From assembly GCF_003254545.1 (NCBI RefSeq), contig NZ_QJRH01000067.1:186001-250000 (forward strand): DNA of 64,000 nucleotides. Reading direction: 5' to 3'. Within the stretch, counting starts at the first letter, position 1, and every line of letters starts with the position of its first letter. Positions 21,606 to 35,364 of the stretch are shown here, piece by piece. A program made the position numbers and the translations under genes. The notes beneath the pieces were generated by a model. The model saw only the letters and a program-made list of their open reading frames with translations. It was not told the DNA's origin and did not search any database. The DNA comes from Flavobacterium tistrianum. GTDB taxonomy: Bacteria; Bacteroidota; Bacteroidia; Flavobacteriales; Flavobacteriaceae.

Positions 21606-22481
21606 TTAATAAAGGTCGTCAGTTCTTAAATTCAAGAAACGTTGTGTTGCAAAATGTGTACTAACCCAAGTAATTAGAACTCCTAATCCGAAAACAGCAA
21701 CCAAAACCAAACCAGTTAAAACTTTGTCTTCTAGAATTCCTAAACCAGGGAAATTAGTGTCTACATATAATAAAAGCGCGATTAAAGCAATAATGGCCAA
21801 ACCAGCACCAAGCATTCCCAATTTTACGCTTCGCATTACAAAAGGCTTACGTATAAATGCTTTTGTTGCTCCAACCATCTGCATGGTTTTGATAATAAAA
21901 CGATTTGAATGTATCGATAAACGCAATGAACTATTGATTAGTAAAACTGCAATTACTGTCAAGAAACCGCTAATAATCAAAATCCACATGCTTACTTTTT
22001 TGATATTGTCATTTACCAGATTCACCAATTGTTTGTCGTACACAATGTCAGAAATCATAGCATTTTTACGAAGACGACTTTCAATTTTTACAATACTATC
22101 TCTTTCAACATAGTCTGCTTTTAAGTGAATGTCGTATGAATTCAATAACGGATTTTCTCCCAAAAAGGTTAAGAAATCTTCTCCGATAATATCAGTGTGT
22201 TCTTTTGCCGCTTTCTCTTTCGTTACATAAACAAAAGATTTAGCGAAAGGAGCTCTTTTAAGTTCTGTATTAAATGCTTTGATAATACTATCATTCGCTT
22301 CATTTTTGAAGAAAACCGTCATGGCGATTTTTTCTTTAAAATCGTCAGCCAATTGTTTAGAATTAATGATGAATAATCCTAATACTCCCAAAAGGAATAA
22401 AACCAAGAATACACTTAAAACTACCGAAAAATAAGAGGAAATTAACCTGCGCTTTTGAAATTTATCAAAGTTAGAACTCAT
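21606..22481 (-). CDS. ftsX: cell division protein FtsX
   Basis: 291 residues. N-terminal TM (about 20-40), a periplasmic domain (about 45-165, with the FLGENPLLNSYDIHLKADY region), and three more TMs (about 170-190, 215-240, 255-280) ending at a cytoplasmic tail: the FtsX/type 7 permease layout. FtsX pairs with the ATPase FtsE and controls peptidoglycan hydrolases at the septum; ftsE is not adjacent here, as usual in Bacteroidota. First gene of the minus-strand operon ftsX-DUF3098-uppP-truB. Confidence 0.93.
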   Translation of the reverse strand: MSSNFDKFQKRRLISSYFSVVLSVFLVLFLLGVLGLFIINSKQLADDFKEKIAMTVFFKNEANDSIIKAFNTELKRAPFAKSFVYVTKEKAAKEHTDIIGEDFLTFLGENPLLNSYDIHLKADYVERDSIVKIESRLRKNAMISDIVYDKQLVNLVNDNIKKVSMWILIISGFLTVIAVLLINSSLRLSIHSNRFIIKTMQMVGATKAFIRKPFVMRSVKLGMLGAGLAIIALIALLLYVDTNFPGLGILEDKVLTGLVLVAVFGLGVLITWVSTHFATQRFLNLRTDDLY

Positions 22482-22828
22482 AGATACTTAAATTATGTGG
22501 TAAAAATAATAAAGAATTTCTTTATTTAAAGTTAATAACAAACTTTTATACTTAAAAGTACGATTTAAATCTAGAAAAGAAGTTTTTATTTAGTGCAAAG
22601 TGTTGCATGAAAAATTAACGCAAAGAACGCAAAGTCTTTCATAAGGTCTGAAAAGTAAGAAGTTTTTCACAGATTAAAAAGATTAAAAATGATTTTTAAG
22701 TCTGCGTAAATTCTTTAATCTGTGGCAGAAAAAGAATTAAGTACGTATTTTTAATCGGAATAATGCCTGTTTTTACTTAATCCTGAACAAGTAATTTATT
22801 ATTTTATTTGTTTGTCAGTGAAATAGCT
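22482..22828. other. intergenic region between divergent ftsX and leuS
   Basis: No gene. Contains a CGCAAAGAACGCAAAG run near 22618 and an imperfect inverted repeat (TTTTTCACAGATTAAA ... TTTAATCTGTGGCAGAAAAA, about 22662-22735) of the kind scattered in this genome. Confidence 0.5.
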
Positions 22829-22858
22829 TTGCTACAATGCGCAATAAATGTAAATTTG
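22829..22858 (+). promoter_or_regulatory. leuS promoter
   Basis: TTG (22829-22831), 19-bp spacer, TAAATTTG (22851-22858): full match to the Bacteroidota housekeeping consensus TTG-N17-23-TAnnTTTG. The start codon is 67 bp downstream. Confidence 0.7.
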
Positions 22859-22925
22859 CGCCATAATTCACAAAGTGAGAAAACCTTAGAGCCTTTGTCA
22901 CTTTGCAACTTTGAACCTTTAAAAA

Positions 22926-25790
22926 ATGAAGTACAATCCAAACGAAATTGAAGCCAAATGGCAAAAATATTGGGCAGAAAATCAAACTTTTGCAGCAAAG
23001 AATAACTCTGAAAAGCCGAAACATTATGTTCTCGATATGTTTCCTTATCCGTCTGGAGCAGGATTACACGTAGGGCATCCGCTGGGTTATATTGCTTCAG
23101 ATGTATATTCTCGTTTCAAAAGACATCAAGGTTTCAATGTTTTGCATCCAATGGGTTACGATAGTTTCGGATTGCCAGCAGAACAATATGCAATCCAGAC
23201 AGGTCAGCGTCCAGAAGATACAACGCGTGTAAATATTGATGGTGGAGTTGATAAAGAAGGAAAACAAATTGCGGGTTACAGAAAACAATTAGATAAAATC
23301 GGTTTTTCTTTTGACTGGGCGCGTGAAGTTCGTACATCGAATCCTGATTACTATAAACATACACAATGGATTTTTATCCAGTTGTTTAATTCTTGGTATA
23401 ATAAAACGGCTGACAAAGCAGAAGATATTTCAACTTTAGTTGCTGTTTTTGAAAAAGAAGGAAATGCAAATGTAAATGCAGTTTCTGATGATAATATTGC
23501 CGTTTTTTCGTCAAGCGAATGGAATGCATTTTCTAAAGATGAGCAAGAAAAAATCCTTTTGCAATACAGATTAACGTATTTGGCAGAAACTGAAGTGAAC
23601 TGGTGTCCAGGCTTAGGAACTGTTTTGGCAAATGACGAAATCGTAAACGGAGTTTCAGAACGTGGAGGCTTTCCTGTTATAAGAAAAAAAATGACACAAT
23701 GGAGTATGCGAATTTCTGCTTATGCCGAACGCTTGCTTCAAGGTCTAAATGATATTGATTGGAGTGAGTCTATCAAAGAATCTCAAAGAAACTGGATTGG
23801 AAAATCAGTAGGAGCATTGGTAACTTTTAATGTGAAAGATCACAATGAAGTAATCGAGGTTTTTACTACTCGTCCTGATACAATTTTCGGAGTAACTTTT
23901 ATGACTTTGGCCCCAGAACACGATTTGGTTGCTAAAATTACAACTCCAGAACAAAAAGCAGAAGTTGAAGCGTATATCGAAAAAACAGCAAAACGTTCTG
24001 AGCGTGAGCGTATGGCTGATGTAAAAACGATTTCTGGTGCATTTACAGGAGCCTATGCAGAACATCCGTTTACAAAAGAACCAATTCCGGTTTGGATTGG
24101 AGATTATGTTTTGGCAGGTTATGGGACTGGTGCTGTAATGGCGGTTCCTTGCGGAGACGAAAGAGATTACGCTTTTGCTAATTTCTTTAAAGGTCAAAAC
24201 GGAATGCAGGAAATCAAAAATATCTTCGCGAATGTTGATATTTCTGAGGCTGCTTATGGATCAAAAGACAACGTTGAAATCGCAAATTCTGATTTCTTAA
24301 ACGGATTAAATTATAAAGAAGGAACTAAAAAAGCGATCGAGAAATTAGAAGAAATCGGTCAAGGAAAAGGTAAAACTAATTACCGTTTGCGTGATGCAGT
24401 TTTCTCTCGCCAACGTTACTGGGGAGAGCCATTCCCAGTCTATTATGTAAATGGATTGCCTAAAATGATTGACACACAACACTTGCCGATTATTTTGCCT
24501 GAAGTTGAGAAATATTTGCCAACTGAAGACGGTTTGCCACCATTAGGAAACGCAGCGGTTTGGGCTTGGGATACAAAACAAAATAAAGTTGTTGCAACTG
24601 ATTTAGTTGATAATGTTTCGATTTTTCCTTTAGAATTAAACACAATGCCAGGTTGGGCGGGAAGTTCATGGTATTGGATGCGTTATATGGATGCGCACAA
24701 TGAAAATGAATTTACAAGCAAAGAAGCTTTGGCGTATTGGGAAAATGTAGATTTATATATTGGAGGAAGCGAACACGCAACGGGTCACTTATTGTATTCT
24801 CGTTTCTGGAATAAATTTTTAAAAGACAAAGGATTTGCTCCGACTGAAGAGCCATTCAAAAAACTGATCAATCAGGGAATGATTTTGGGTACGACGGCTT
24901 ATGTTTACAGATTGGAAGGAACTAATACTTTTGTGTCTAAAAATAAAATTGAAGGTCAAAATGTACAACCAATTCGTGTTGATGTTCATTTTGTAAATTC
25001 TTCTGATGAATTGAATATCGAAAAGTTCAAAACTTGGAGAGAAGACTTCAATACAGCAGAATTTATTTTAGACGAAAACGGAAAATACATTGTAGGACGT
25101 GAAGTAGAAAAAATGTCTAAGTCATACTATAATGTTGTAACTCCAGATGATATCTGCGCAGAATACGGTGCTGATACATTACGTTTATACGAAATGTTCT
25201 TAGGGCCATTAGAGCAGGCAAAACCTTGGAATACTGCTGGAATTTCTGGAGTATTTGGTTTCTTGAAAAAATTATGGAGATTGTATTTTGATGATAACGG
25301 TTTAATTGTAAACAACGACGAGCCAACAAAAGACAACTTGAAATCGTTACACAAAACCATCAAAAAAGTAGCAGAAGATATCGAGAATTTCTCTTTCAAT
25401 ACTTCAGTTTCTCAGTTTATGATTTGTGTGAATGAATTGTCTTCTCAAAACTGTCATTCTAGAGCAATTTTAGAACCTTTAGCAATTTTGGTGTCGCCTT
25501 ATGCTCCTCATATCGCTGAAGAATTATGGTCACAGTTAGGACATACAACTTCAATTTCTGAAGTAGCTTTCCCAGCTTTTGATGCAAAACATTTAGTTGA
25601 AACAAATAAAGAATATCCAGTTTCTTTCAACGGAAAAATGCGTTTCACAATCGAATTGCCTTTGGATTTAACCAAAGAACAAATCGAAGAAATCGTAATG
25701 AAAGACGAAAGAACGCAAAAACACTTAGACGGAAGAACGCCAAATAAAGTGATTATTGTTCCTGGGAAAATAATTAACCTAGTAGGTTAA
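22926..25790 (+). CDS. leuS: leucyl-tRNA synthetase
   Basis: 954 residues, class Ia synthetase. HIGH-type motif HVGH (48-51) in YPSGAGLHVGHPLGY, a CP1 editing domain (about 235-440, with TTRPDTIFGVTFM and GTGAVMAVPCGDERD) that hydrolyses misacylated tRNA-Leu, zinc/insert regions, KMSKS at about 729-733, and an anticodon-binding helical domain. Longer than E. coli LeuRS (860) owing to an insertion near residues 160-190 (KTADKAEDISTLVAVFEKEG), normal in Flavobacteria. Own promoter and a terminator at 25811. Confidence 0.97.
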   Translation: MKYNPNEIEAKWQKYWAENQTFAAKNNSEKPKHYVLDMFPYPSGAGLHVGHPLGYIASDVYSRFKRHQGFNVLHPMGYDSFGLPAEQYAIQTGQRPEDTTRVNIDGGVDKEGKQIAGYRKQLDKIGFSFDWAREVRTSNPDYYKHTQWIFIQLFNSWYNKTADKAEDISTLVAVFEKEGNANVNAVSDDNIAVFSSSEWNAFSKDEQEKILLQYRLTYLAETEVNWCPGLGTVLANDEIVNGVSERGGFPVIRKKMTQWSMRISAYAERLLQGLNDIDWSESIKESQRNWIGKSVGALVTFNVKDHNEVIEVFTTRPDTIFGVTFMTLAPEHDLVAKITTPEQKAEVEAYIEKTAKRSERERMADVKTISGAFTGAYAEHPFTKEPIPVWIGDYVLAGYGTGAVMAVPCGDERDYAFANFFKGQNGMQEIKNIFANVDISEAAYGSKDNVEIANSDFLNGLNYKEGTKKAIEKLEEIGQGKGKTNYRLRDAVFSRQRYWGEPFPVYYVNGLPKMIDTQHLPIILPEVEKYLPTEDGLPPLGNAAVWAWDTKQNKVVATDLVDNVSIFPLELNTMPGWAGSSWYWMRYMDAHNENEFTSKEALAYWENVDLYIGGSEHATGHLLYSRFWNKFLKDKGFAPTEEPFKKLINQGMILGTTAYVYRLEGTNTFVSKNKIEGQNVQPIRVDVHFVNSSDELNIEKFKTWREDFNTAEFILDENGKYIVGREVEKMSKSYYNVVTPDDICAEYGADTLRLYEMFLGPLEQAKPWNTAGISGVFGFLKKLWRLYFDDNGLIVNNDEPTKDNLKSLHKTIKKVAEDIENFSFNTSVSQFMICVNELSSQNCHSRAILEPLAILVSPYAPHIAEELWSQLGHTTSISEVAFPAFDAKHLVETNKEYPVSFNGKMRFTIELPLDLTKEQIEEIVMKDERTQKHLDGRTPNKVIIVPGKIINLVG

Positions 25791-25810
25791 TATTTAAATT
25801 TCAAATATTT

Positions 25811-25852
25811 AAAATCCCAAATTCCAATTGTTGGAGTTTGGGATTTTTTTTG
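25811..25852 (+). terminator. leuS terminator
   Basis: AAAATCCCAAA ... TTTGGGATTTTTTTT hairpin with inner TTCCAA/TTGGA arms, 21 bp after the leuS stop, T-rich end on the plus strand. Confidence 0.75.
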
Positions 25853-25865
25853 TGTAATTTTTTTT

Positions 25866-25928
25866 CGCCACGAATTCACGAATTATTTTTGACAATCTTT
25901 GAGACTAAAAATTCGTGAATTCGTGGCG
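25866..25928. repeat. CGCCACGAATTCACGAATT inverted repeat
   Basis: 18-bp arms identical to those at 7011, with a 27-bp spacer. Rest of the 25791-26124 gap holds the leuS terminator and the candidate ECF promoter. Confidence 0.75.
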
Positions 25929-26029
25929 AAAAATTACCCAAATCGGTTTGGAATTTTGAATTTTAGTATTGGAATTTCCCCCGTAAACATTGGGATTTGT
26001 AATTTTTTCATTAAAAATTTAAAAACTTT

Positions 26030-26055
26030 TGTAACATTTTAGTAGTTGCCGTATC
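26030..26055 (+). promoter_or_regulatory. candidate ECF-type promoter of the hydrolase-sigma operon
   Basis: TGTAAC (26030-26035) and CGTATC (26050-26055), separated by 14 bp, resemble ECF sigma -35 (AAC core) and -10 (CGT core) elements and lie 70 bp before the hydrolase ATG. No TAnnTTTG is present in the gap. Spacer slightly shorter than usual, so low confidence. Confidence 0.3.
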
Positions 26056-26124
26056 AAAAGCATGGATCCGATTTAATTAACAATTTATTGCTATTAAAAT
26101 TTTAACAACTTAAAACTATTAAAA

Positions 26125-26973
26125 ATGAAAAAGTATATCATCTTAATTATCGCATTCTTATTCTCAGCATTATGTCTAAATGTTTTTGCACAAACAAAAT
26201 CATATCCGTTTGAAGTTTTAAAAACTGGAAAAGGGAAACAATCAATAATCTTCATTCCTGGGTTTGCTTCTTCTGGAGAAGTTTGGAATGATACCAAAAC
26301 AGCATTCGAAAAAGACTTCACTTGTTATACGCTTACAATGTCAGGTTTTGCAGGAGTAAAACCACAAGCAAATCCATCATTTGAAAATTGGAAAAACGAA
26401 ATTGCAGCTTATATAAAAGACAATAAAATTGAAAAGCCAATTGTAATTGGCCACAGTATGGGAGGAGGATTAGCACTTGCTATTGCATCAGATTATCCAG
26501 AATTAATTGGAAAAATTGTGGTTGTGGATGCGCTTCCGTGTTTGGCGGCTTTGAGCGATCCATCTTTTAAATCAAAAGAAAATAATGACTGTTCGGCAAC
26601 TGTAAATCAAATGACGGGAATGAACGAAACTCAATTCTATGATATGCAGAAACAAATGATGCCAAGGCTTTTGCAAGATCAATCAAAGTTGGAAACAGTT
26701 GTAAGCTGGAGCGTAAAGTCAGACCGAAACACTTTTGGACAAATGTATTGTGATTTTTATAATACCGATTTAAGAGCGAAAATCTCACAGATAAAATGTC
26801 CATCTTTAGTTTTATTAGAATCTTATTTTATAAATTTAAAACCAGCAATTGAAACACAATATGCAAATTTGAAAACAGCCGATTTTAAATACGCTAATAA
26901 AGGCCTTCATTTTATTATGTATGATGATAAAGATTGGTATTTGGCACAATTGAATAATTTTTTAAAATCTTAA
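26125..26973 (+). CDS. exported alpha/beta hydrolase
   Basis: 282 residues. Signal peptide (1-23, IIAFLFSALCLNVFAQ). Alpha/beta hydrolase fold: oxyanion region FIPGFASSGEVW (43-54), nucleophile elbow GHSMGGG with Ser111, and His near the C-terminus in GLHFIMYDD. Probably a periplasmic esterase or lipase; substrate unknown. It ends one base before the start of the ECF sigma factor gene, so expression of the hydrolase is tied to the regulator. Confidence 0.88.
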   Translation: MKKYIILIIAFLFSALCLNVFAQTKSYPFEVLKTGKGKQSIIFIPGFASSGEVWNDTKTAFEKDFTCYTLTMSGFAGVKPQANPSFENWKNEIAAYIKDNKIEKPIVIGHSMGGGLALAIASDYPELIGKIVVVDALPCLAALSDPSFKSKENNDCSATVNQMTGMNETQFYDMQKQMMPRLLQDQSKLETVVSWSVKSDRNTFGQMYCDFYNTDLRAKISQIKCPSLVLLESYFINLKPAIETQYANLKTADFKYANKGLHFIMYDDKDWYLAQLNNFLKS

Positions 26974-26974
26974 A

Positions 26975-27448
26975 ATGGAATTCGAACAGATATATAAAAC
27001 TTATTGGGATAGAATTTTCAGGCTTTGTATGGGTTTCGTAAACGATTATGATGCCGCTCAGGATTTGGCTCAGGAAACTTTTATAATTGTCTGGCAGAAA
27101 CTGGAAACCTTCAGAAATGAATCTTCTATTGGAACGTGGATTTTCAGAATCGCTTCCAATAATTGCCTGAGGCAGATAGAAAAGCAGAAACGTTTTCCAA
27201 AATCTGAACTTCCTGTTCATCTTTCTGAAGAAAAACAAACCTCATTAGAACCTCAGATTCAATTCTTGTATAAATGTATTGCCGAGCTTCCAGAAACCGA
27301 TCGTATTATTATTTCGTTAGAATTAGAGGATATCAAACAAAATGAAATTGCCAAAATCGTCGGACTTTCTGAAGCCAATGTTAGAGTGAAAATTCACAGA
27401 ATAAAAGAAAAACTGACTCAAAAATTTAAAGAAAATGGACAACGATAA
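26975..27448 (+). CDS. ECF-family RNA polymerase sigma factor
   Basis: 157 residues with only sigma regions 2 and 4. Region 2: FEQIYKTYWDRIFRLCMGFVNDYDAAQDLAQETFIIVWQKL (about 2-45); region 4: ELPETDRIIISLELEDIKQNEIAKIVGLSEANVRVKIHRIKEKL (about 103-148), a clear helix-turn-helix. It is the second gene of the hydrolase operon and overlaps the next gene by 14 bp. That partner should be its anti-sigma factor by position. Confidence 0.93.
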   Translation: MEFEQIYKTYWDRIFRLCMGFVNDYDAAQDLAQETFIIVWQKLETFRNESSIGTWIFRIASNNCLRQIEKQKRFPKSELPVHLSEEKQTSLEPQIQFLYKCIAELPETDRIIISLELEDIKQNEIAKIVGLSEANVRVKIHRIKEKLTQKFKENGQR

Positions 27449-28031
27449 TAATATAGATTTTAAAGATTTATGGAAAAAACAATCCGTAAGTCAGCCAGAT
27501 ATGACCGATTTGCTGGCACGAATAAATAAGTTTAAAAAAACTGGACTGCGTTGTTTATGGATTACCAATATTCTGCTTTTAGCAACCAGCGCCTTCATTG
27601 CTTTTGTTTGGTTTTATTATCAGCCACAATTTATTTCGACTAAAATCGGAATTGTTTTGGTGATTTTGGCAATGGTGATTTATTTAATGGTCTACAACAA
27701 ACTATTAGGCAATTATAAAAATATAGAAGCAAATCAAACCAATCAGGAGTATTTGCAAAACTTAATTTTAATTAAAAAGAAACAAAACTTCATGCAGACG
27801 AAACTGATGACTTTATATTTTGTTTTGTTAACGGTTGGAATTTGTTTGTATATGTATGAATATGCAAGCAGGATGGCAGCTTGGATGGCGATTTTAACTT
27901 ATGGAATCACATTGTTCTGGATGTTGTTTAACTGGTTGTATATTCATCCAAAACAAACCAAAAAACAGCAAGAAAAAATAAATAGTCTAATTGAAAAATT
28001 TGAAGAAGTTAATCATCAATTAGAGTTATAA
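27435..28031 (+). CDS. four-TM membrane protein, probable anti-sigma factor by position
   Basis: 198 residues. A cytoplasmic N-terminus (1-36, DFKDLWKKQSVSQPDMTDLL) is followed by four hydrophobic segments (about 40-58, 66-84, 119-137, 148-165) and a charged C-terminal helix (170-198). No zinc-binding HxxxCxxC motif, so it is not a classical ZAS anti-sigma. The 14-bp overlap with the ECF sigma gene is the usual arrangement for sigma/anti-sigma pairs, which is the main argument; no homology is claimed. Followed by a perfect-palindrome terminator. Confidence 0.72.
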   Translation: MDNDNNIDFKDLWKKQSVSQPDMTDLLARINKFKKTGLRCLWITNILLLATSAFIAFVWFYYQPQFISTKIGIVLVILAMVIYLMVYNKLLGNYKNIEANQTNQEYLQNLILIKKKQNFMQTKLMTLYFVLLTVGICLYMYEYASRMAAWMAILTYGITLFWMLFNWLYIHPKQTKKQQEKINSLIEKFEEVNHQLEL

Positions 28032-28036
28032 AAAAG

Positions 28037-28062
28037 AAGCTTCGCAATTGCGAAGCTTTCTT
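28037..28062 (+). terminator. terminator of the hydrolase-sigma operon
   Basis: Perfect palindrome from AAGCTTCGCAA to its complement (28037-28058) directly after the stop, followed by TCTTTT. Confidence 0.75.
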
Positions 28063-28102
28063 TTACCAAAAACAAAAATCTAAAATTTTAAATTTCTATA
28101 AA

Positions 28103-28501
28103 CTATTGTCCGAAAACGTAAGGTGTAAGAGATAATACAATTATTCCATCACTATTTGCTGTAGCAGTCAATTCATTCTCTAGTTTTCCTCCAATGTAAA
28201 TTTTTCCAGTTAATGTTTGTCCAGCAACTCCACCGTATCCACCAGCGCTTAATGAAGCTCCCATAGATTTTGCTTCTGCAGTGAACTCTTTAGTCCATGG
28301 AAGTTTAGTAAGATCTTCATTCAATGCGTTACCGCCTTTTTCAAAATAGGTAACAGATGTTGTTCCTGAATAGTTTCCTGTTATCTCATATTTAACGTCT
28401 CTTGAGTTATTTCCTCCTTTATTATCATCATCACTGCTGCAAGAAACTGCTGTAAAAGCAAGAGTCATTACAATTGCTAAGGTTTTCAAAATTGATTTCA
28501 T
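28103..28501 (-). CDS. small lipoprotein of unknown function
   Basis: 132 residues. Lipoprotein signal peptide with lipobox (FTAVSCSSDDDNKGG, Cys at about 21) followed by the acidic/Ser linker often seen on surface-exposed Flavobacterium lipoproteins. The remainder is a compact 100-residue domain of beta-strand character (YEITGNYSGTTSVTYFE; GKIYIGGKLENELTATA). No family recognised. It is divergent from the TPR histidine kinase gene and its promoter sits next to a palindromic operator, so it is a likely target of that system. Confidence 0.8.
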   Translation of the reverse strand: MKSILKTLAIVMTLAFTAVSCSSDDDNKGGNNSRDVKYEITGNYSGTTSVTYFEKGGNALNEDLTKLPWTKEFTAEAKSMGASLSAGGYGGVAGQTLTGKIYIGGKLENELTATANSDGIIVLSLTPYVFGQ

Positions 28502-28535
28502 AGTATATATTTTTAATTAATAGTAAGATCTACAA

Positions 28536-28563
28536 CAAAATTAGACCCTTACCTACGAGACAA
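28536..28563 (-). promoter_or_regulatory. promoter of the 28.1-kb lipoprotein gene
   Basis: Reverse strand: TTG (28563-28561), 17-bp spacer, TAATTTTG (28543-28536); both elements exact. A TACCTGATA half-site (28567-28575) ends just upstream of the -33. Confidence 0.65.
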
Positions 28564-28566
28564 CAA

Positions 28567-28607
28567 TACCTGATAAAGTGTATTTTTTATTACCTGATAT
28601 CAGGTAA
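28567..28607. promoter_or_regulatory. operator: TACCTGATA half-site plus 18-bp palindrome
   Basis: Perfect palindrome TTACCTGATATCAGGTAA at 28590-28607, with a further TACCTGATA at 28567-28575. It lies between divergent promoters: immediately upstream of the lipoprotein -33 and 17 bp upstream of the kinase -33. This is the arrangement of an activator or dual regulator; the neighbouring NarL-type regulator is the obvious candidate binder (inference). Confidence 0.6.
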
Positions 28608-28624
28608 AAGCAAGCAATTTCTTT

Positions 28625-28653
28625 TTGAAAGTCATTAAGCTTTAATAACTTTG
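28625..28653 (+). promoter_or_regulatory. promoter of the TPR histidine kinase gene
   Basis: TTG (28625-28627), 18-bp spacer, TAACTTTG (28646-28653); exact consensus, 16 bp before the ATG at 28670. Confidence 0.65.
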
Positions 28654-28669
28654 GGTAAATGCCACATTT

Positions 28670-30682
28670 ATGAAGAAACTCTACGCCTTTTTATTTTTTT
28701 TGTTTTTCACTGCAATTTCCAATTCACAAGTAATTCTTTCCTTAGATGATGATACTGTTTATATTGACAGTATTGTTAAAATCACAAAAAACACAAAATC
28801 TGATAGTGTCAAAAGTTTGAATAGTTTCAGATTGTCAAAACTGTTTTTGATGGCGCAGGATGCAAAAAAGTCTAAAGAATATTTGGAACAGGCAAATAAG
28901 CTTAAAGCCAAATTTCCTTTTCTAAAAGATGCTTCTATTTTCTATAATGCCTATAATTTTATAGAAAAGGGCGATTTGGAAGGTTTTGAAAAAGCTTTAC
29001 TAGAAGCCAATTCTAAACTTAAAAAATACCGTAATAAAGAAGCTTATAAACTTCGTGCTGTCATACTTCAGAATTATGGAATTATGCAACAGCGCAAGAA
29101 CAACGAAAACGCTTATATGAAATTGCTGGTTAATGAGGCTATTCCGATTGCTAAAAGAAGTGGCGATTACGAATTGATCAGTGCGTTAAATAAAGCAGTT
29201 GCCATTATTTTTATGAATAATGATGAACGCGAAAAAGCAGCTGAATATCTAGATCAAGCGCAGAAATATATCGAGAGTGCTACCAAAAAATCTGCAACTT
29301 TAGCAGAGTCTAAGATGGAAACGTATATTATAAATGCGGAAAATTTAGTTGAGCTGAAACATTTTTATGACGCTAAAGAAATTCTGGATAAAGCTTATGA
29401 GACTTTAGAAAAATATCCTGAATCCAATTTGAATGATTCTTATTTTTATTCGGAAGGGCTTTATTATGCGAAACAGAACAAACACAAAGAAGCACTAGTG
29501 AGTTTTGAAAAAGGAATAAAATCGGCAGAAAACCATCAAAATGCCATTGCAGTAAACCGATTGAAATTTGCAGAATATGAAGTGCTTTTTAAACTGAAAA
29601 ATTACGATAAAGCTAAAAGCAATTTAGAATATCTAATTGCAAAAACACCTTTTATTGTAGATAAAAAAAATTATTACAAAGAGCTGTCTAAAGTTTATAA
29701 TGCGACAAAAGAATATCCGAAAGCTTATTATTATTCGAATAAATACAATGTTATAAACGATAGTTTAAACGATGCTAAACTGAAAACGGAAATTGTTGAG
29801 CTTGAAGCAAAATATAAAAAAGCCGAAAGTGAAAAGAAAATTGGTTTGCTGCAGTCGGAGAATGAAAAAGCAGTTTTGCAGGTTAATAATAACCGTTTGA
29901 ATATGTTGCTTTTCGCAGTGCTTTCGTTTGTTTTGTTTTTGACAGTTTTGTTTTTGTGGAGCTGGAATAACTATCAGAAAAAAATAAGTTTTCAAAAAGA
30001 AGTCAATCACAAACAAGAACTTGAAGCATTAGAAAATCAGCAGAAATTATCTGTTTCAAACGCTTTGATTGAAGGGGAAGAAATTGAACGTAAAAGAATT
30101 GCCAGAGATCTTCACGACGGACTTGGAAGTATGCTTTCTGGTCTTAAAATGCATTTGAATCTTGCTGATCGCGAGAATAAAGAAAATGCGCCCAACATTA
30201 ATGGTTTATTAAATGATTCGATAAAAGAACTTCGCAATATTTCTCAGAATCTAATGCCCGAAAGTTTAATGAAATTGGGTCTAGAGCATGCGCTTAGAGA
30301 TTTGTGCGCTTCGCATTCAACGACCGAAACCACAATCGAATTTCAGTATTTGATTAAAAAGACAACCTTGCCACAGCATTTTAAAATCATGATTTTCAGA
30401 ATTATTCAAGAACTTTTGAATAATTCTTTAAAATATGCCAAAGCATCGCAGATTTTAGTTTCCTGTTCGCAAAATAAAGATGTGTTTTTTATTACAGTAG
30501 AGGATAATGGAATTGGCTTTAATGTAGAATATGCTGAAAAAAGGGACGGAATGGGCTTGCGGAATATTAAAAACCGCGTGGCTTTTTTGAATGGAAAAAT
30601 AGAAATTGATTCGGTTCTGGATAAAGGAACTTCAACTTATATCGAATTAAAATATAACCCAAATCATGATTATGAAGTATAA
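28670..30682 (+). CDS. TPR-containing NarX-type sensor histidine kinase
   Basis: 670 residues. Signal peptide (1-19), an exported helical region with TPR-like repeats (about 45-375), a TM segment (about 408-428, LLFAVLSFVLFLTVLFLW), a coiled linker, then HisKA_3 (ERKRIARDLHDGLGSMLSGL, H482) and an HATPase with N box RIIQELLNNSLKYA and DNGIGFNVE. This is the family in which periplasmic TPRs sense a ligand or protein. The 3' end overlaps the LuxR regulator gene, so they form one operon. Divergent from a lipoprotein gene with a shared operator. Confidence 0.92.
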   Translation: MKKLYAFLFFLFFTAISNSQVILSLDDDTVYIDSIVKITKNTKSDSVKSLNSFRLSKLFLMAQDAKKSKEYLEQANKLKAKFPFLKDASIFYNAYNFIEKGDLEGFEKALLEANSKLKKYRNKEAYKLRAVILQNYGIMQQRKNNENAYMKLLVNEAIPIAKRSGDYELISALNKAVAIIFMNNDEREKAAEYLDQAQKYIESATKKSATLAESKMETYIINAENLVELKHFYDAKEILDKAYETLEKYPESNLNDSYFYSEGLYYAKQNKHKEALVSFEKGIKSAENHQNAIAVNRLKFAEYEVLFKLKNYDKAKSNLEYLIAKTPFIVDKKNYYKELSKVYNATKEYPKAYYYSNKYNVINDSLNDAKLKTEIVELEAKYKKAESEKKIGLLQSENEKAVLQVNNNRLNMLLFAVLSFVLFLTVLFLWSWNNYQKKISFQKEVNHKQELEALENQQKLSVSNALIEGEEIERKRIARDLHDGLGSMLSGLKMHLNLADRENKENAPNINGLLNDSIKELRNISQNLMPESLMKLGLEHALRDLCASHSTTETTIEFQYLIKKTTLPQHFKIMIFRIIQELLNNSLKYAKASQILVSCSQNKDVFFITVEDNGIGFNVEYAEKRDGMGLRNIKNRVAFLNGKIEIDSVLDKGTSTYIELKYNPNHDYEV

Positions 30683-31301
30683 AACGGTAATAGTAGACGA
30701 TCATCCGATTGTGATTTCTGGAATTTCAGGTTTGCTTTCAGATTTAGATAATATAGAAATTGTCGAAAAATTCGAATCGGGAATTGCACTTTTAGATTAT
30801 ATAGAAGACAATAAAGTCGACTTGATTTTAATGGATATTTTTCTTCCTGTAATAAATGGAGTTGATCTATGTAAAACCATCAAGCAAAAGCATCCTAAAA
30901 TTGTAATTATAGGTATGAGCAGCCAATCTGAAAGAAGTTTGGTGATGCAATTTATTCAGAATGGCGGAAACGGATATATTCTGAAAAACGCTTCTTTTGA
31001 TGAGTTTAAAGAATGTATTTATAAAGCTATTGATGGCGAAATTGTTTTTAGCGAAGAAGTGAAAACCATAATTAGCCAGCCTTTGTCTGAAGATTTAGAA
31101 AGAATTCCAGGGTTAAGCCGAAGAGAGCGCGATATTGCATTATTGCTTTCGCAAGGAAAATCGACTCAAGAAATCGCCGATGATTTGTTTTTGAGCTTTC
31201 TAACCGTTCAAACACACCGACGCAATATTCTTCAGAAGTATAAAATGAAAAATGTGGCAGAATTGATTGCCTTTTTGCTTAAAAACAACATGTTGAATTA
31301 A
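30666..31301 (+). CDS. NarL/LuxR-type response regulator
   Basis: 211 residues from 30666, or 209 if translation starts at the second Met (30672), which the family alignment of MKYKTVIVDDHP favours slightly. Receiver domain with D57 (DLILMDIFLP) and a C-terminal GerE/LuxR helix-turn-helix (LSRRERDIALLLSQGKSTQEIA ... TVQTHRRNIL). Overlaps the kinase by 11-17 bp. Probable binder of the palindrome at 28590; that is inference from position. Confidence 0.92.
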   Translation: MIMKYKTVIVDDHPIVISGISGLLSDLDNIEIVEKFESGIALLDYIEDNKVDLILMDIFLPVINGVDLCKTIKQKHPKIVIIGMSSQSERSLVMQFIQNGGNGYILKNASFDEFKECIYKAIDGEIVFSEEVKTIISQPLSEDLERIPGLSRRERDIALLLSQGKSTQEIADDLFLSFLTVQTHRRNILQKYKMKNVAELIAFLLKNNMLN

Positions 31302-31404
31302 GTCAAAAGTGGTAAAAAAATGTCAAAATGGCATTTTGTTAAAATGGTTCGCATTTTGCAGTTTGTTTTGTAAATTTAAAAATCAATCTAAAAACACAAA
31401 AAAA

Positions 31405-32091
31405 ATGGGATCAGGATATTTAATTATTGCTGGAGCTATAATGTTGTTCAGCTGGCTAGTAAGTTCGCAGCTGAAGAGCAAATTTGAATTGTATTCGAAG
31501 TTGCAATTAAGAAACGGAATGAGCGGACGTGAAATTGCTGAAAAAATGCTTGCCGATAACGGAATTACAGATGTTCGTGTTATTTCAACGCCAGGTCAGT
31601 TAACAGATCATTATAATCCATCAGATAAAACAGTAAACTTAAGCGAAGCAGTTTATAATCATCGTAACGCGGCAGCGGCGGCTGTTGCAGCACACGAATG
31701 CGGTCACGCAGTGCAGCATGCAATTGGTTACGAGTGGCTGACGATGCGTTCTAAATTGGTGCCGATTGTAAGCGTGGCTTCTAATTTTGTACAATGGATT
31801 TTGATTGCAGGAATTCTAATGATTAAAGTTTTTCCAGGTTTATTATTAATAGGAATCATCATTTTCGCGGCTACAACTTTGTTTTCAATTATTACACTTC
31901 CGGTAGAATATGATGCTAGTAACCGTGCGTTGGCTTGGTTAGAAAATAAGCATATGCTGACGCAAGAAGAACAAGCAGGAGCAAAAGATGCTTTAAAATG
32001 GGCAGCAAGAACTTATGTGGTAGCAGCAATTGGTTCTATTGCAACGTTGCTGTACTATATATCAATTTATTCTGGAAGTAGAAGGAACTAA
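31405..32091 (+). CDS. zinc metallopeptidase (YugP/PF04298 family), membrane-anchored
   Basis: 228 residues from the ATG at 31405; the open frame extends 96 bp upstream through non-coding-like sequence after the regulator stop. N-terminal TM (about 4-20), then an extracytoplasmic or cytoplasmic peptidase domain with HECGH (zinc site) in AAVAAHECGHAVQHAIGYEW, and three further hydrophobic segments (about 120-145, 150-172, 200-218). Same layout as B. subtilis YugP. Function unclear. Downstream hairpin at 32133. Confidence 0.88.
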   Translation: MGSGYLIIAGAIMLFSWLVSSQLKSKFELYSKLQLRNGMSGREIAEKMLADNGITDVRVISTPGQLTDHYNPSDKTVNLSEAVYNHRNAAAAAVAAHECGHAVQHAIGYEWLTMRSKLVPIVSVASNFVQWILIAGILMIKVFPGLLLIGIIIFAATTLFSIITLPVEYDASNRALAWLENKHMLTQEEQAGAKDALKWAARTYVVAAIGSIATLLYYISIYSGSRRN

Positions 32092-32132
32092 TTAGTTAAT
32101 TGAGATAATTAGTCAATTAGATAATTTATTGC

Positions 32133-32166
32133 AAACCCGACAGTTTTTTAAAATCTGTCGGGTTTT
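32133..32166 (+). terminator. terminator, CCCGACAG family
   Basis: AAACCCGACAG ... CTGTCGGGTTTTG hairpin followed by T-rich sequence, 42 bp after the peptidase stop. Third member of the hairpin family seen at 3005 and 3758. Confidence 0.7.
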
Positions 32167-32182
32167 GTTTTTTTATTAAGTT

Positions 32183-32248
32183 GTCAGGCTGAGCGGAGTC
32201 GAAGCCTTTATAGGTAATTAAGCCCTTTGACTTCACTCAGGATAACAG
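32183..32248. repeat. GAGCGGAGTCGAAG repeat with inverted partner
   Basis: GTCAGGCTGAGCGGAGTCGAAGCC and, 20 bp later, its diverged complement (TTTGACTTCACTCAGGATAAC). Resembles the dispersed CTGAGCGAAGTCGAAG element known from many Bacteroidota genomes; related copy at 21535. Confidence 0.65.
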
Positions 32249-32293
32249 CTAACATAAAATTATCTAATTTTCAAATTGGCACATTATCTAATT

Positions 32294-32764
32294 CTAAAGC
32301 TGTATTTGCCTATCAATCTGCTGATCTAATGAGATGAACGTTTCAGTTCTCGAAACTCCTTCAATGGCTTGGATTTTATTATTCAAAAGTTGCATTAAAT
32401 GTTCATTGTCACGACAGATAATTTTAATTAAAACCGACCAGTTTCCTGTAGTATAATGGCATTCTAAAACTTCTGGGATTTTTCTAAGTTCTTTTACGGC
32501 TTCAGAGTTTCTTGAAGCTTTATCTAGATAAACTCCAACAAATGCCATTGTATTATATCCCAAAACTTTTGGGTTTACAGTAAATTTAGATCCAGAAATA
32601 ACACCAGATTGTTCTAGCTTTTTTAATCTCTGGTGGATTGCGGCGCCTGAAATTCCTATTTTATTAGCAATTTGCAAGATTGGTTTTCGGGCATCGTCCA
32701 TGAGATAGCGAAGTATTTCTTTGTCGATTCCGTCAATTTCAATTAAAAGGGAGTTGATTTTCAT
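32294..32764 (-). CDS. Lrp/AsnC-family transcriptional regulator
   Basis: 156 residues. N-terminal winged helix-turn-helix (about 10-60: LLIEIDGIDKEILRYLMDDARKPILQIANKIGISGAAIHQRLKKLEQSGVI) and C-terminal RAM/ligand domain (about 75-150) containing YTTGNWSVLIKI. Members bind amino acids and control amino-acid metabolism. Target here unknown; it is monocistronic with a TACATTTG -7 upstream. Confidence 0.93.
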   Translation of the reverse strand: MKINSLLIEIDGIDKEILRYLMDDARKPILQIANKIGISGAAIHQRLKKLEQSGVISGSKFTVNPKVLGYNTMAFVGVYLDKASRNSEAVKELRKIPEVLECHYTTGNWSVLIKIICRDNEHLMQLLNNKIQAIEGVSRTETFISLDQQIDRQIQL

Positions 32765-33021
32765 AACTTATAATTTGAAACTATTTTTAAGATTTGGGTT
32801 ATCAATAGAAATCAAATGTAGTCAAAATGCTGTAGAAATGGAAATTCCAATATTGAAATCCCAAATCCCAAATCCCAAACTTCAAATTGCTTCACCTGTT
32901 CGTTATCGCTCAAGTTCGTTTTTAAACATAGCTCGTGGTTTCAACCACTGGAGACGTATTGATATGCGTTGTGTTCCCATGGTTGAAACCACGGGAAACG
33001 TATCGAATAAATCATAAAAAC
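32765..33021. other. intergenic region upstream of the Lrp gene, repeats only
   Basis: Contains the Lrp -7 element (TACATTTG on the minus strand, 32813-32820), AAATCCCAAATCCC runs (32850-32885) and the GTGGTTTCAACCAC palindrome pair listed separately. No open reading frame worth reporting. Confidence 0.5.
32934..32994. repeat. CGTGGTTTCAACCACTGG inverted repeat
   Basis: Arms CGTGGTTTCAACCACTGG and CCATGGTTGAAACCACGG (17 of 18 complementary) around a 25-bp loop rich in GCG/CGT. More G+C than the surroundings; REP-type element. Confidence 0.7.
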
Positions 33022-33065
33022 AAAAATTCCAAATTTCAAGCGATTAACTTGGAATTTGGAATTTT
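33022..33065 (-). terminator. probable hemD terminator
   Basis: AAAATTCCAAATT ... AATTTGGAATTTT inverted repeat 25 bp past the hemD stop on the minus strand, A/T-rich both sides. Confidence 0.5.
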
Positions 33066-33089
33066 AAAAATTGTATATTTTAAAAAGGA

Positions 33090-33839
33090 TTATTTCCCTT
33101 TGTTTGCTTCTGCAACGTATTTTTCTAAAGCCATTGTCATAGAAGGCGTTTCAGGAGTTGGAGCAAGAATATCAATTCTTAAACCATGATCCAAAGCCTC
33201 TTTTTGAGTTGTGCTTCCGAATACGGCGATTCTGGTGTCGTTTTGTTTAAAATCTGGGAAATTTTTAAACAATGATTTAATTCCTGTCGGACTGAAAAAA
33301 GCTAAGACATCATAATAAACATCTGCTAAATCAGATAAATCACTCATTACAGTTCTGTAGAAAATTGCTTGTGCCCAATCTACTTTTAAACCGTTTAATG
33401 TAACAGGAGCATCTGCATTTAATTGGTCAGATGCAGGAAGTAAAAACTTCTCATCTTTGTACTTCTTAATTAGCGGAGATAAATCTGCAAAATCTTTTGC
33501 TCCAACGTAAATCTTACGTTTTCTGTACACAACATACTTTTGAAGGTAAAACGCAACAGCCTCAGATTGACAAAAATACTTCAACCCTTCAGGAACTTTG
33601 TAACGCATTTCATCAGCCACTCTAAAAAAATGATCTACAGCATTTCTACTTGTTAAAATGATCGCAGTGTAATGATTAAGATCGATTTTTTGTAATCGAA
33701 TCTCTTTTGCGCTAACCCCTTCTACATGAATAAATGGTCTGAAATCAATTTTTATTTTGTGTTTTTGTTGGAGCTCAAAGTAAGGAGAATTCTCCACTTT
33801 AGGTTCAGGCTGTGACACCAAAATTGTTTTCACTTTCAT
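33090..33839 (-). CDS. hemD: uroporphyrinogen-III synthase (HemD)
   Basis: 249 residues from the ATG at 33839 (MKVKTILVSQPEP); an upstream in-frame ATG at 33878 would overlap the preceding gene and add 13 unconserved residues. HemD cyclises hydroxymethylbilane to uroporphyrinogen III in heme synthesis. Family features: N-terminal VSQPEP, FFRVADE and YKDEKFLLPASDQLN, and C-terminal AFFSPTGIKSLFKNF ... IAVFGSTTQKEALDHGL. HemD is poorly conserved, so the call rests on fold-level similarity and on the usual DUF4271-hemD neighbourhood in Flavobacteria. Confidence 0.87.
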   Translation of the reverse strand: MKVKTILVSQPEPKVENSPYFELQQKHKIKIDFRPFIHVEGVSAKEIRLQKIDLNHYTAIILTSRNAVDHFFRVADEMRYKVPEGLKYFCQSEAVAFYLQKYVVYRKRKIYVGAKDFADLSPLIKKYKDEKFLLPASDQLNADAPVTLNGLKVDWAQAIFYRTVMSDLSDLADVYYDVLAFFSPTGIKSLFKNFPDFKQNDTRIAVFGSTTQKEALDHGLRIDILAPTPETPSMTMALEKYVAEANKGK

Positions 33840-33853
33840 ATTATAAATATTTT

Positions 33854-34522
33854 CTAAGCACTCCCTTTTGTTATCCAATAATAGAGAAAATAATAAGGGG
33901 CTATTTCAAGAGCGCAAAGATACAAAATAAAATAAAATAACTTGCCGATAATTACGTTTTGATACGTTTTAATTGAAATAAAGTAAGAGTATACGCTAAT
34001 ACACAGCGAAATGCCTATGATTGCTAAGGGTATAATTTGCGGAATATTGTTGTAATAAAACAAAACGGCATTGATTGGAAGGATTAAAACGCCAATATAA
34101 GTTCTGTACGTTACTTTTTGTAAGTTAAAAAGCTCTACAAATTCATCAATGTTGAAAGAAGCTGCTACAATTTTCTCGATTAAATATTTTCCAAGAATGA
34201 AATAAAGCAGAAAAGTTGCAATTCGGATAAATAAAAGCCAGTCGGTTTTTGAAGCATAGCCAAAAATATTCATCGTTAGCAGAATAAAAAAAGCAAACGA
34301 TACAACCTGCACAAAAAATAATCCAACCGTAAAGCTGTTTTTCATGTGGCTGTTATCTCGATAAATTTTGGCGTATTTGTCAGAAAAAATAAGTTTACTA
34401 AACTCACTAAATCTTGTTTCGTAAGCCGATTTTGTCATGGCAACAACAGCAAAGGTCAGCACAAATAAAAGTGTTGCCCAGTCTTTGTTTTCAAGAATTC
34501 GAGGGTGTAATTGTTCAATCAT
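33854..34522 (-). CDS. DUF4271 membrane protein
   Basis: 222 residues with about six hydrophobic segments (about 17-33, 67-87, 100-118, 140-158, 163-182, 195-212). The layout and the arrangement in front of hemD, 14 bp away, fit DUF4271, a Bacteroidota-specific inner-membrane family. Function unknown. A TAATTTTG -7 element lies 8-15 bp upstream of the start. Confidence 0.83.
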   Translation of the reverse strand: MIEQLHPRILENKDWATLLFVLTFAVVAMTKSAYETRFSEFSKLIFSDKYAKIYRDNSHMKNSFTVGLFFVQVVSFAFFILLTMNIFGYASKTDWLLFIRIATFLLYFILGKYLIEKIVAASFNIDEFVELFNLQKVTYRTYIGVLILPINAVLFYYNNIPQIIPLAIIGISLCISVYSYFISIKTYQNVIIGKLFYFILYLCALEIAPYYFLYYWITKGSA

Positions 34523-34529
34523 AGCGATA

Positions 34530-34537
34530 CAAAATTA
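34530..34537 (-). promoter_or_regulatory. -7 element TAATTTTG of DUF4271-hemD
   Basis: Exact TAnnTTTG on the minus strand, very close to the ATG at 34522, implying an almost leaderless mRNA. Confidence 0.4.
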
Positions 34538-34599
34538 GTAATTTTTTGATGCAATACTTTTATTATATATTTATTATGAATCAAATGCTATAAAAAGTT

Positions 34600-34607
34600 T
34601 ACTTTTG
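34600..34607 (+). promoter_or_regulatory. -7 element TACTTTTG of the glycosyltransferase-pyrC operon
   Basis: Exact TAnnTTTG 21 bp before the ATG at 34629; no clear -33. Confidence 0.5.
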
Positions 34608-34628
34608 CGGTGAAATTACCGAGAAAAA

Positions 34629-35354
34629 ATGAATGATAGCATTGTCATAATTCCCACTTATAACGAAATTGAAAACATAGAAAGTATAGTTAGAGCTGTA
34701 CTTTCACAACATAAATCTTTTCATCTGCTGATTATCGACGATAATTCTCCTGATCATACTGCAAAAAAAGTAATTGCATTGCAGGAAGAATATCCAGGAA
34801 AACTGTTTTTAGAGCAGAGAACTAAAAAATCAGGATTAGGAACAGCGTATGTTCACGGCTTTAAATGGGCTTTGGAGCGCGACTATCAATTTATTTTTGA
34901 GATGGATGCCGATTTTTCGCATAACCCAAATGATTTAGAAAAATTATATGATGCTTGTCATTTTGGAGGAGCAGATCTTGCTATTGGTTCTCGTTATGTA
35001 AAAGGTGTAAATGTTGTCAACTGGCCTTTAAGCCGAGTTTTGATGTCTTATTTTGCATCGGTTTATGTGAAATTCATAACCGGAATGAAAATTCACGATG
35101 CAACTGCGGGTTTTGTATGTTACAAAAGAGAAGTTCTGGAGAAAATCAATTTGAATAAAATAAAGTTTGTCGGATACGCGTTTCAAATTGAAATGAAGTA
35201 CAGAACGTATTGCGCCAAATTTCAAATTACCGAAGTCCCAATTATTTTTACAGATAGAACAAAAGGAGTTTCTAAAATGAGTAATGCCATTATCAAAGAA
35301 GCTATTCTTGGAGTGATTTCACTTAGATTAAGAAAATTAGTCAATTCATTATAA
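34629..35354 (+). CDS. polyprenol-phosphate mannosyltransferase-like GT2 glycosyltransferase
   Basis: 241 residues, a single GT-A domain without C-terminal TMs. IIPTYNEIENIESIVRAVL, IIDDNSPDHTAKK, the metal-binding DxD in FEMDADFSHNP, and GSRYVKGVNVVNWPLSR / MKIHDATAGFVCYKREVL are the Dpm1/polyprenol monophosphomannose synthase signatures. It transfers a sugar from GDP- or UDP-sugar to a lipid phosphate carrier at the inner membrane. First gene of a tight unit with pyrC (10-bp gap) and DUF4296 (9-bp gap). Confidence 0.92.
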   Translation: MNDSIVIIPTYNEIENIESIVRAVLSQHKSFHLLIIDDNSPDHTAKKVIALQEEYPGKLFLEQRTKKSGLGTAYVHGFKWALERDYQFIFEMDADFSHNPNDLEKLYDACHFGGADLAIGSRYVKGVNVVNWPLSRVLMSYFASVYVKFITGMKIHDATAGFVCYKREVLEKINLNKIKFVGYAFQIEMKYRTYCAKFQITEVPIIFTDRTKGVSKMSNAIIKEAILGVISLRLRKLVNSL

Positions 35355-35364
35355 ACCAACCGAA

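Follow-up and report, generated by a model that had tools for sequence, protein, structure and literature searches.

Paired 7-2-7 sites as the probable operator of a NarL-type response regulator between divergent genes of Flavobacterium tistrianum

The intergenic region between a predicted lipoprotein gene and a divergently transcribed sensor kinase/NarL-type regulator gene pair of Flavobacterium tistrianum holds two 16-bp sites, A and B, for which we have directly observed the sequence, the geometry, the conservation, the co-inheritance with the kinase-regulator pair and the co-variation with the recognition helix. Judging from these patterns in the DNA, we consider it highly likely that A and B form the operator of the adjacent regulator, dimers of which would occupy both sites, most likely activating the lipoprotein gene, and would control the kinase-regulator operon. 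Positions refer to the window, the whole 64,000-nucleotide stretch of DNA that was analyzed.

Two 7-2-7 sites between divergent genes

The features of the region are as follows.

28037..28058, minus strand: terminator-like hairpin after the lipoprotein gene (one found; 0.4 expected in shuffles)
28103..28501, minus strand: 132-aa lipoprotein with a signal peptide, then a lipobox-like SCSS, and an MmpS-like beta fold (PF05423, structure model)
28536..28543, minus strand: -7 box TAATTTTG of the lipoprotein promoter (TAnnTTTG, consensus as given in the available portion of PMC9723704), 20 bp from the -33 element, a distance kept in 51/51 regions
28564..28566, minus strand: -33 TTG of the lipoprotein promoter (CAA on the plus strand), abutting site A; CAA in 51/51 regions
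28567..28582, no strand: site A, degenerate 7-2-7 site TACCTGA-TA-AAGTGTA (51-locus alignment and distant loci)
28591..28606, no strand: site B, TACCTGA-TA-TCAGGTA, a palindrome of perfect 7-2-7 form (identity across 51 loci 99.4% for each heptamer)
28625..28627, plus strand: -33 TTG of the kinase promoter (weak conservation, 29/51 regions)
28646..28653, plus strand: -7 box TAACTTTG of the kinase promoter (TAnnTTTG in 51/51 regions)
28670..30682, plus strand: sensor kinase, HisKA_3 and HATPase_c (Pfam domains)
30666..31301, plus strand: NarL-type response regulator, receiver and GerE/LuxR HTH, recognition helix LFLSFLTVQTHRRN (Pfam domains, helix comparison)

The gene pair has the make-up of a NarL/FixJ-type two-component system. 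The regulator matches PF00072 at 83.5 bits and PF00196 at 58 bits, and the HisKA_3/HATPase_c kinase lies in the same putative operon, the two ORFs overlapping (28670-30682 and 30666-31301). In the N-terminal half of the kinase, the match to TPR_12 is weak (20.3 bits against the Pfam cut-off of 30.1). Bacteroidota genomes commonly encode TPR-type kinases in pairs with NarL-type regulators. Convergent with the lipoprotein gene, positions 26975-28031 hold a gene for an ECF sigma factor and, after it, a small gene of unknown family, possibly an anti-sigma factor; the sigma gene has no match at several otherwise orthologous loci (e.g., L018, L019, and L021).

The first-pass annotation of this DNA had described an 18-bp perfect palindrome, TTACCTGATATCAGGTAA, at 28590-28607, which is borne out as site B with its flanking T and A, and a half-site, TACCTGATA, at 28567-28575, which is correctly placed but does not stand alone: it is the strong half of a full-length 16-bp site spanning 28567-28582. 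Sites A and B start 24 bp apart, and both show the 7-2-7 geometry of NarL sites, that is, two inverted heptamers separated by a 2-bp gap. The 16-mer core of B occurs once in the 64-kb window and, in the genome search that had been proposed, exactly once in the 5.07-Mb genome. At up to three mismatches, shuffles give 0.11 expected matches to this core, with at least one match in 8 of 100 shuffles. A composite search pattern with a spacer of 16 N (against 17 N) returned 22/398 hits that are palindrome-only or chance matches and provide no evidence for site A; loci L117-L128 were taken from these hits.

To follow the sites among relatives, we aligned 51 orthologous regions, namely the window and 50 close loci (L005-L054, 78-100% regulator identity) among at least 79 relatives of the regulator, leaving out the distant loci L055-L083. 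The block that starts at the lipoprotein -33 and closes with the palindrome is gapless in all 51. Mean pairwise identity is 100% for both the CAA at 28564-28566 and the TACCTGA at 28567-28573, 89.8% for the right half of site A (AAGTGTA, 28576-28582), 78.5% for the 8-bp spacer between the sites, and 97.7% for the palindrome overall (99.4% in its heptamers, 85.2% in its center), while the stretches flanking the operator block fall to 52.6% and 60.7%. Because its right half is conserved within this gapless block, we read the half-site as the strong half of a second 16-bp site. The palindrome itself is kept at 51/51 loci, 42 with the identical 16-mer and nine changed solely within the middle four bases (TACCTGATATCAGGTA at 42 loci, TACCTGATTTCAGGTA at 7, TACCTGATTACAGGTA at 1, and TACCTGTTTTCAGGTA at 1), and the earlier expectation that orthologous loci would retain it thus holds. 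Chance can be dismissed: nothing beyond its small size speaks for a fortuitous palindrome, TACCTGnnnnCAGGTA at up to one mismatch is expected 0.01 times in the window, and conservation extends over 51/51 loci, leaving this explanation with a negligible probability.

The two promoters that had been called complete are unequally so. Both -7 boxes are kept in all 51 regions, but the kinase TTG 18 bp upstream is present in just 29, so the kinase promoter is incomplete in many relatives. The proposed abutment of the lipoprotein -33 on the half-site is confirmed through the CAA at 28564-28566; the CAA originally chosen, at 28561-28563 (N17), is not conserved. According to the available portion of the start-site map for F. 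psychrophilum, the -7 box occupies -12 to -5 (PMC9723704), and this rule places the predicted start sites at 28531 for the lipoprotein (minus strand) and 28658 for the kinase (plus strand). Relative to the predicted lipoprotein start, sites A and B would be centered at -43.5 and -67.5; relative to the predicted kinase start, B would lie at -59.5.

The palindrome would thus be part of neither predicted transcript, since it lies upstream of both predicted start sites. This position bears on the idea that it acts as an RNA or DNA structure such as a hairpin or terminator, which a perfect inverted repeat might suggest. No loop separates the 9-bp arms, the heptamers are retained as the center varies, and the same heptamers differ with the helix of a protein (see below). 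A terminator scan did not list the palindrome either, and we rejected this highly improbable reading on position and co-variation.

Co-inheritance and co-variation with the regulator

Of 299 genus genomes, 29 contain the exact 16-mer and 3 its reversed control, and a match to the kinase N-terminus is found in 47 of 299, with at least 70% identity in 32; each search covered 299 genus genomes, apparently the same draw. All 29 palindrome genomes fall within these 32, the remaining three (G210, G015, and G249) carry center variants of the palindrome, and the exact site is absent from the 267 of 299 genomes without a close kinase orthologue. Because the 32 genomes are close relatives, this co-inheritance taken alone is confounded by descent. 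Outside the 299, the exact 16-mer occurs in G317, which has only a distant kinase (locus L210), and in G334, beside unrelated genes.

Seven distant loci with the same recognition-helix type (L194-L199 and L210) all carry the operator upstream of the kinase, L197 with one mismatch and L210 having been sampled because the palindrome was already present there. Their kinases are 33-48% identical to that of the window and their regulators 51-61% (L194-L199) or 50% (L210). Site A is unrecognizable at 24 bp in L197, L198, and L210. The palindrome is kept where no adjoining lipoprotein homolog was found (L196, L197, L199, and L210), where the homolog lies upstream of the regulator gene instead (L198), and where the adjoining homolog is remotely similar (L195, HMM E 1.5e-6). 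Among closer relatives, F. reichenbachii (L021) retains the operator, and no lipoprotein was found there. A second copy of the system (L209, G183:C8:25000-33000) also has an intact operator; at this locus, a mere 29-residue remnant of the lipoprotein was matched, and an extra gene follows the regulator.

The site also differs with the recognition helix. Loci whose regulators carry a TxQTH helix have TACCTGnnnnCAGGTA within 450 bp upstream of the kinase in 59 of 59 cases (58 exact, one with one mismatch), and loci with TxE(T/S)H (TxE(T/S)HRRN) in 0 of 15, where the best candidates have three to five mismatches. We take the Q/E residue to sit where NarL contacts DNA. Q at this position is confined to the window's regulator among the seven NarL-type helices compared in its own genome, a comparison that left out the full-length paralogs L191 and L192. 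A shuffle control on 66 of the 74 loci gave one match in 1320 shuffles at one mismatch and none at zero; it omitted L050, L198, L202, and L215-L219, which failed the kinase or helix pattern and were added to the mismatch count by another rule, and L211-L213 were left out of both.

Thirteen of the 15 E loci carry other 16-bp sites, each upstream of the kinase and each paired with its own helix variant: TAATGGTnTACCATkA with S[IV]ITVE in seven loci (L200, L201, L203, L204, L206, L207, and L214), TACGGGTTTACCCTGA with SLVTVE in two (L205 and L208), and TACTGGTTTTCC[AG]GTA with SPLTVE or SPLTIE in four (L216-L219). In six E-type loci, site A fits better at 25 bp. No recognizable site was found in L202. 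L215, which has an SPLTVE helix, shows no site upstream of its kinase as called and had looked empty because the kinase ORF was called short; a targeted look located TACTGGTTTACCAGTA directly after its regulator gene. On a regulator tree of 39 rows, which took in 11 of the 51 close loci, the six site labels need six changes (least possible five, shuffled mean 18.9). The pairing of Q with TACCTGA accounts for a single change, in one strongly supported clade, so most of the 59 Q loci are not independent and the independent evidence amounts to about three switches.

These observations weigh on the possibility that another transcription factor, global or repressor-type, binds A and B and controls the lipoprotein gene and the kinase operon, leaving the adjacent regulator with other targets. 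Many factor families use perfect palindromes, and some copies of the site stand at other envelope genes (a leucine-rich-repeat protein and a beta-barrel-like gene pair, see below) or, in G334, by unrelated genes. Against this stand the absence of the exact site from genomes lacking a close kinase orthologue, the change of the heptamer with the adjacent regulator's helix, and a geometry like that of NarL sites as far as these are described in the accessible parts of PMC4549865, which make a different factor improbable. The palindrome is very probably the landing site of the adjacent regulator, because it travels with the regulator, differs with its helix, and accompanies a relocated lipoprotein gene in several relatives. 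The first-pass proposal that it serves as that regulator's operator thus gains support from its co-inheritance with the kinase-regulator pair, its change with the recognition helix, and its NarL-like 7-2-7 spacing, and site B would presumably be the high-affinity site.

Candidate output genes and mode of regulation

The lipoprotein belongs to the MmpS family by PF05423 (26.1 bits against a cut-off of 21). Among the homologs tested, only that of L240 passes, at 33.1 bits, and those of L216 (20.0) and L186 (14.7) fall short. Its structure model has a mean pLDDT of 83.7, with 29 residues below 50, all N-terminal, and matches MmpS5 (8em5) with Z 12.4 and an rmsd of 2.3 over 90 residues, a separate comparison giving E 2.9e-4 for the MmpS fold; the next structural matches after 8em5 are Bacteroides proteins, two of them DUF4425, at Z 8.7-9.9. 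A modeled fold in common with MmpS is no demonstration of a transport role. Among 23 aligned sequences (from 28103-28501 and its orthologues among L005-L054), several types of mature part can be told apart by sequence (LDVTYMEKSGAPLIED and LSTTYFEKGGNALNED, for example), and these do not track the signal-peptide types, as if the mature domain had been exchanged between lineages while the operator stayed fixed. A paralogous lipoprotein in the same genome (L186:6150-6560, G000:C1:398655-399059) has a palindrome-like TCCCTGAAAACAGGGA upstream and is flanked by a LytTR-type regulator/kinase pair on one side and by another NarL-type regulator on the other.

Searching 38 kinase-bearing genomes (the 32 close and six distant Q-type genomes, with nine E-type genomes left out) yielded 54 occurrences of TACCTGnnnnCAGGTA, against three for the reversed pattern. 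The site stands at the kinase in 38 cases and elsewhere in 16, all intergenic: at three lipoprotein homologs, four copies of a leucine-rich-repeat gene, four of a beta-barrel-like gene pair, and five other genes, some more than 200 bp away. Closer inspection of the surroundings covered 17 chosen sites, those in G323 and G334 lying outside the 38 genomes. The leucine-rich-repeat gene is preceded by the site in G000, G136, G250, and G249; in the window's own genome, this is a further exact TACCTGnnnnCAGGTA site at G000:C1:380760, 164 bp before the gene. Upstream of the beta-barrel-like gene pair, the site lies at exactly 100 bp in G042, G083, G202, and G091, and also in G323. A wide regulon in the window's own genome is not supported, near-matches with up to two mismatches numbering 12 against 10 for the reversed pattern.

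The relocated lipoprotein homologs that carry a palindrome are those of the distant genomes G274, G225, and G082 (HMM E 3.6e-33, 1.7e-12, and 2.7e-13, respectively), where it precedes the start codon by 112-124 bp; two of these genomes, G274 and G225, also have a TAC-N10-GTA 24 bp from it. Three of five relocated copies thus have a site, those in the kinase-bearing genomes G111 (C38) and G169 (C23) being without one, as is a weaker homolog in G057. Lipoprotein homologs in genomes without a kinase match (G033, G061, G186, and G192) have the site in 0 of 4, a survey that was incomplete (it missed G082 and G225, which were probably in the draw), such that more than four homologs are possible. The suggestion that the lipoprotein is a dedicated output of the system is therefore upheld in part: three relocated homologs keep a site of their own, but two relocated copies have none, the kinase gene lies on the other side of the operator, the site is also present at a few further envelope genes, and another gene replaces the lipoprotein in some lineages.

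Among E-type systems, TACTGGTTTTCCAGTA gives 11 exact sites in 8 of 299 family genomes, five at or near the kinase-regulator locus and six elsewhere; in L224, L226, and L227, it stands beside a conserved secreted or outer-membrane protein gene (YITFSP motif) away from the kinase locus. TACTGG-type sites also lie directly after the regulator gene in L215, L222, and L228, precede an outer-membrane-like gene in L215 and L222, and, in L229, occur close to where another lipoprotein gene begins. Such sites around E-type systems suggest a local envelope regulon.

Binding, its dependence on phosphorylation, cooperativity, and the sign of regulation are what we infer. The kinase would sense a signal and phosphorylate the regulator, one dimer of which would bind palindrome B and another site A, which is weaker and lies at a distance of 24 bp, beside the lipoprotein -33 at the predicted -43.5, a position that depends on the start-site rule cited above. 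The bound complex would raise transcription of the lipoprotein as the main output. Because B is at the predicted -59.5 from the kinase start, the same complex would also control the kinase-regulator operon, constituting autoregulation.

We favor activation as the probable sign because A and B lie upstream of both predicted starts and the kinase promoter often lacks a -33. The same operator and regulator could also act with the opposite sign, repressing the lipoprotein gene, its own operon, or both through site A, which abuts the -33 at a place that may serve repression as well as activation. This variant of the preferred explanation is possible, though unlikely: neither site lies over a predicted start, the predicted -43.5 lies near the positions from which NarL activates at napF and yeaR, as reported in the available parts of PMC4549865, and the kinase promoter, with a conserved -7 and often no -33 TTG, resembles activator-dependent promoters.

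We regard as evenly balanced the broader proposal that this locus belongs to a group of autoregulated sensor-kinase/NarL systems extending across the Flavobacteriaceae, with a shared layout in which a pair of 16-bp 7-2-7 sites, spaced about 24 bp, precedes the kinase gene. In this view, the heptamer changes in parallel with a few helix residues, and the core output of the present system is an MmpS-like envelope lipoprotein. If this is true, a recognition code of the NarL family could be read from the natural specificity series TACCTGA, TAATGGT, TACGGGT, and TACTGGT, and these operator/helix pairs on one conserved layout are the most interesting part of the system. Because the locus and its relatives offer a target site, a promoter layout, and an output gene along with a series of natural site/helix pairs, NarL-family DNA specificity becomes directly testable in this phylum. 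A family of small envelope lipoproteins would also acquire a likely controller, and the search for the signal a candidate reporter.

Relation to known systems

The 16-mer appears in no paper of the open-access literature searched, a scope that left subscription journals mostly outside, and narrow open-access searches returned no described operator for a TPR-type kinase/NarL-type regulator pair. Searches on MmpS gave nothing of use among the matches listed. Within that literature, the operator and regulon are undescribed; they are of a known kind.

Like flavobacterial sigma-A promoters, as characterized in the available portion of PMC9723704, both divergent promoters have a TAnnTTTG -7 box. They differ in the direct contact between site A and the lipoprotein -33 and in the poor conservation of the kinase -33.

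MmpS proteins have a transmembrane anchor and are encoded with an MmpL (RND) transporter. The lipoprotein resembles MmpS4 and MmpS5, mycobacterial periplasmic accessory proteins of MmpL transporters, in its PF05423 score above the cut-off and in the match of its model to MmpS5. Unlike them, it is a predicted lipoprotein with a cysteine anchor, and no MmpL-like gene is recognized nearby, neither among the eight proteins of 26125-32764 (the lipoprotein included) nor in the ORFs of 22000-36000.

The consensus of NarL heptamers is TACYYMT, from which TACCTGA departs at the last two positions, and the site falls outside the NarL regulon proper (nitrate control). Compared with the E. coli NarL 7-2-7 operators (napF, yeaR, frdA, and an engineered narG -89/-89), insofar as the available parts of the source describe them, the inner bases differ (TGA...TCA here versus CCT...AGG), as do the recognition helix (TVQTHRRN here), the type of sensor, and the tandem arrangement of a perfect and a degenerate site at a fixed 24 bp between divergent genes. 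The likenesses are 16-bp inverted heptamers with a 2-bp gap, outer TACC...GGTA bases, a site in the -40s, and a GerE/LuxR-type output domain. In the same parts of that source, the 7-2-7 sites through which NarL activates are placed at -40/-49 for napF and at -38/-47 for yeaR, and TACCCCTAAAGGGGTA is given as an engineered 7-2-7 site (PMC4549865). By analogy, we would class the present site not as a member of the NarL regulon but as one that works like a NarL site.
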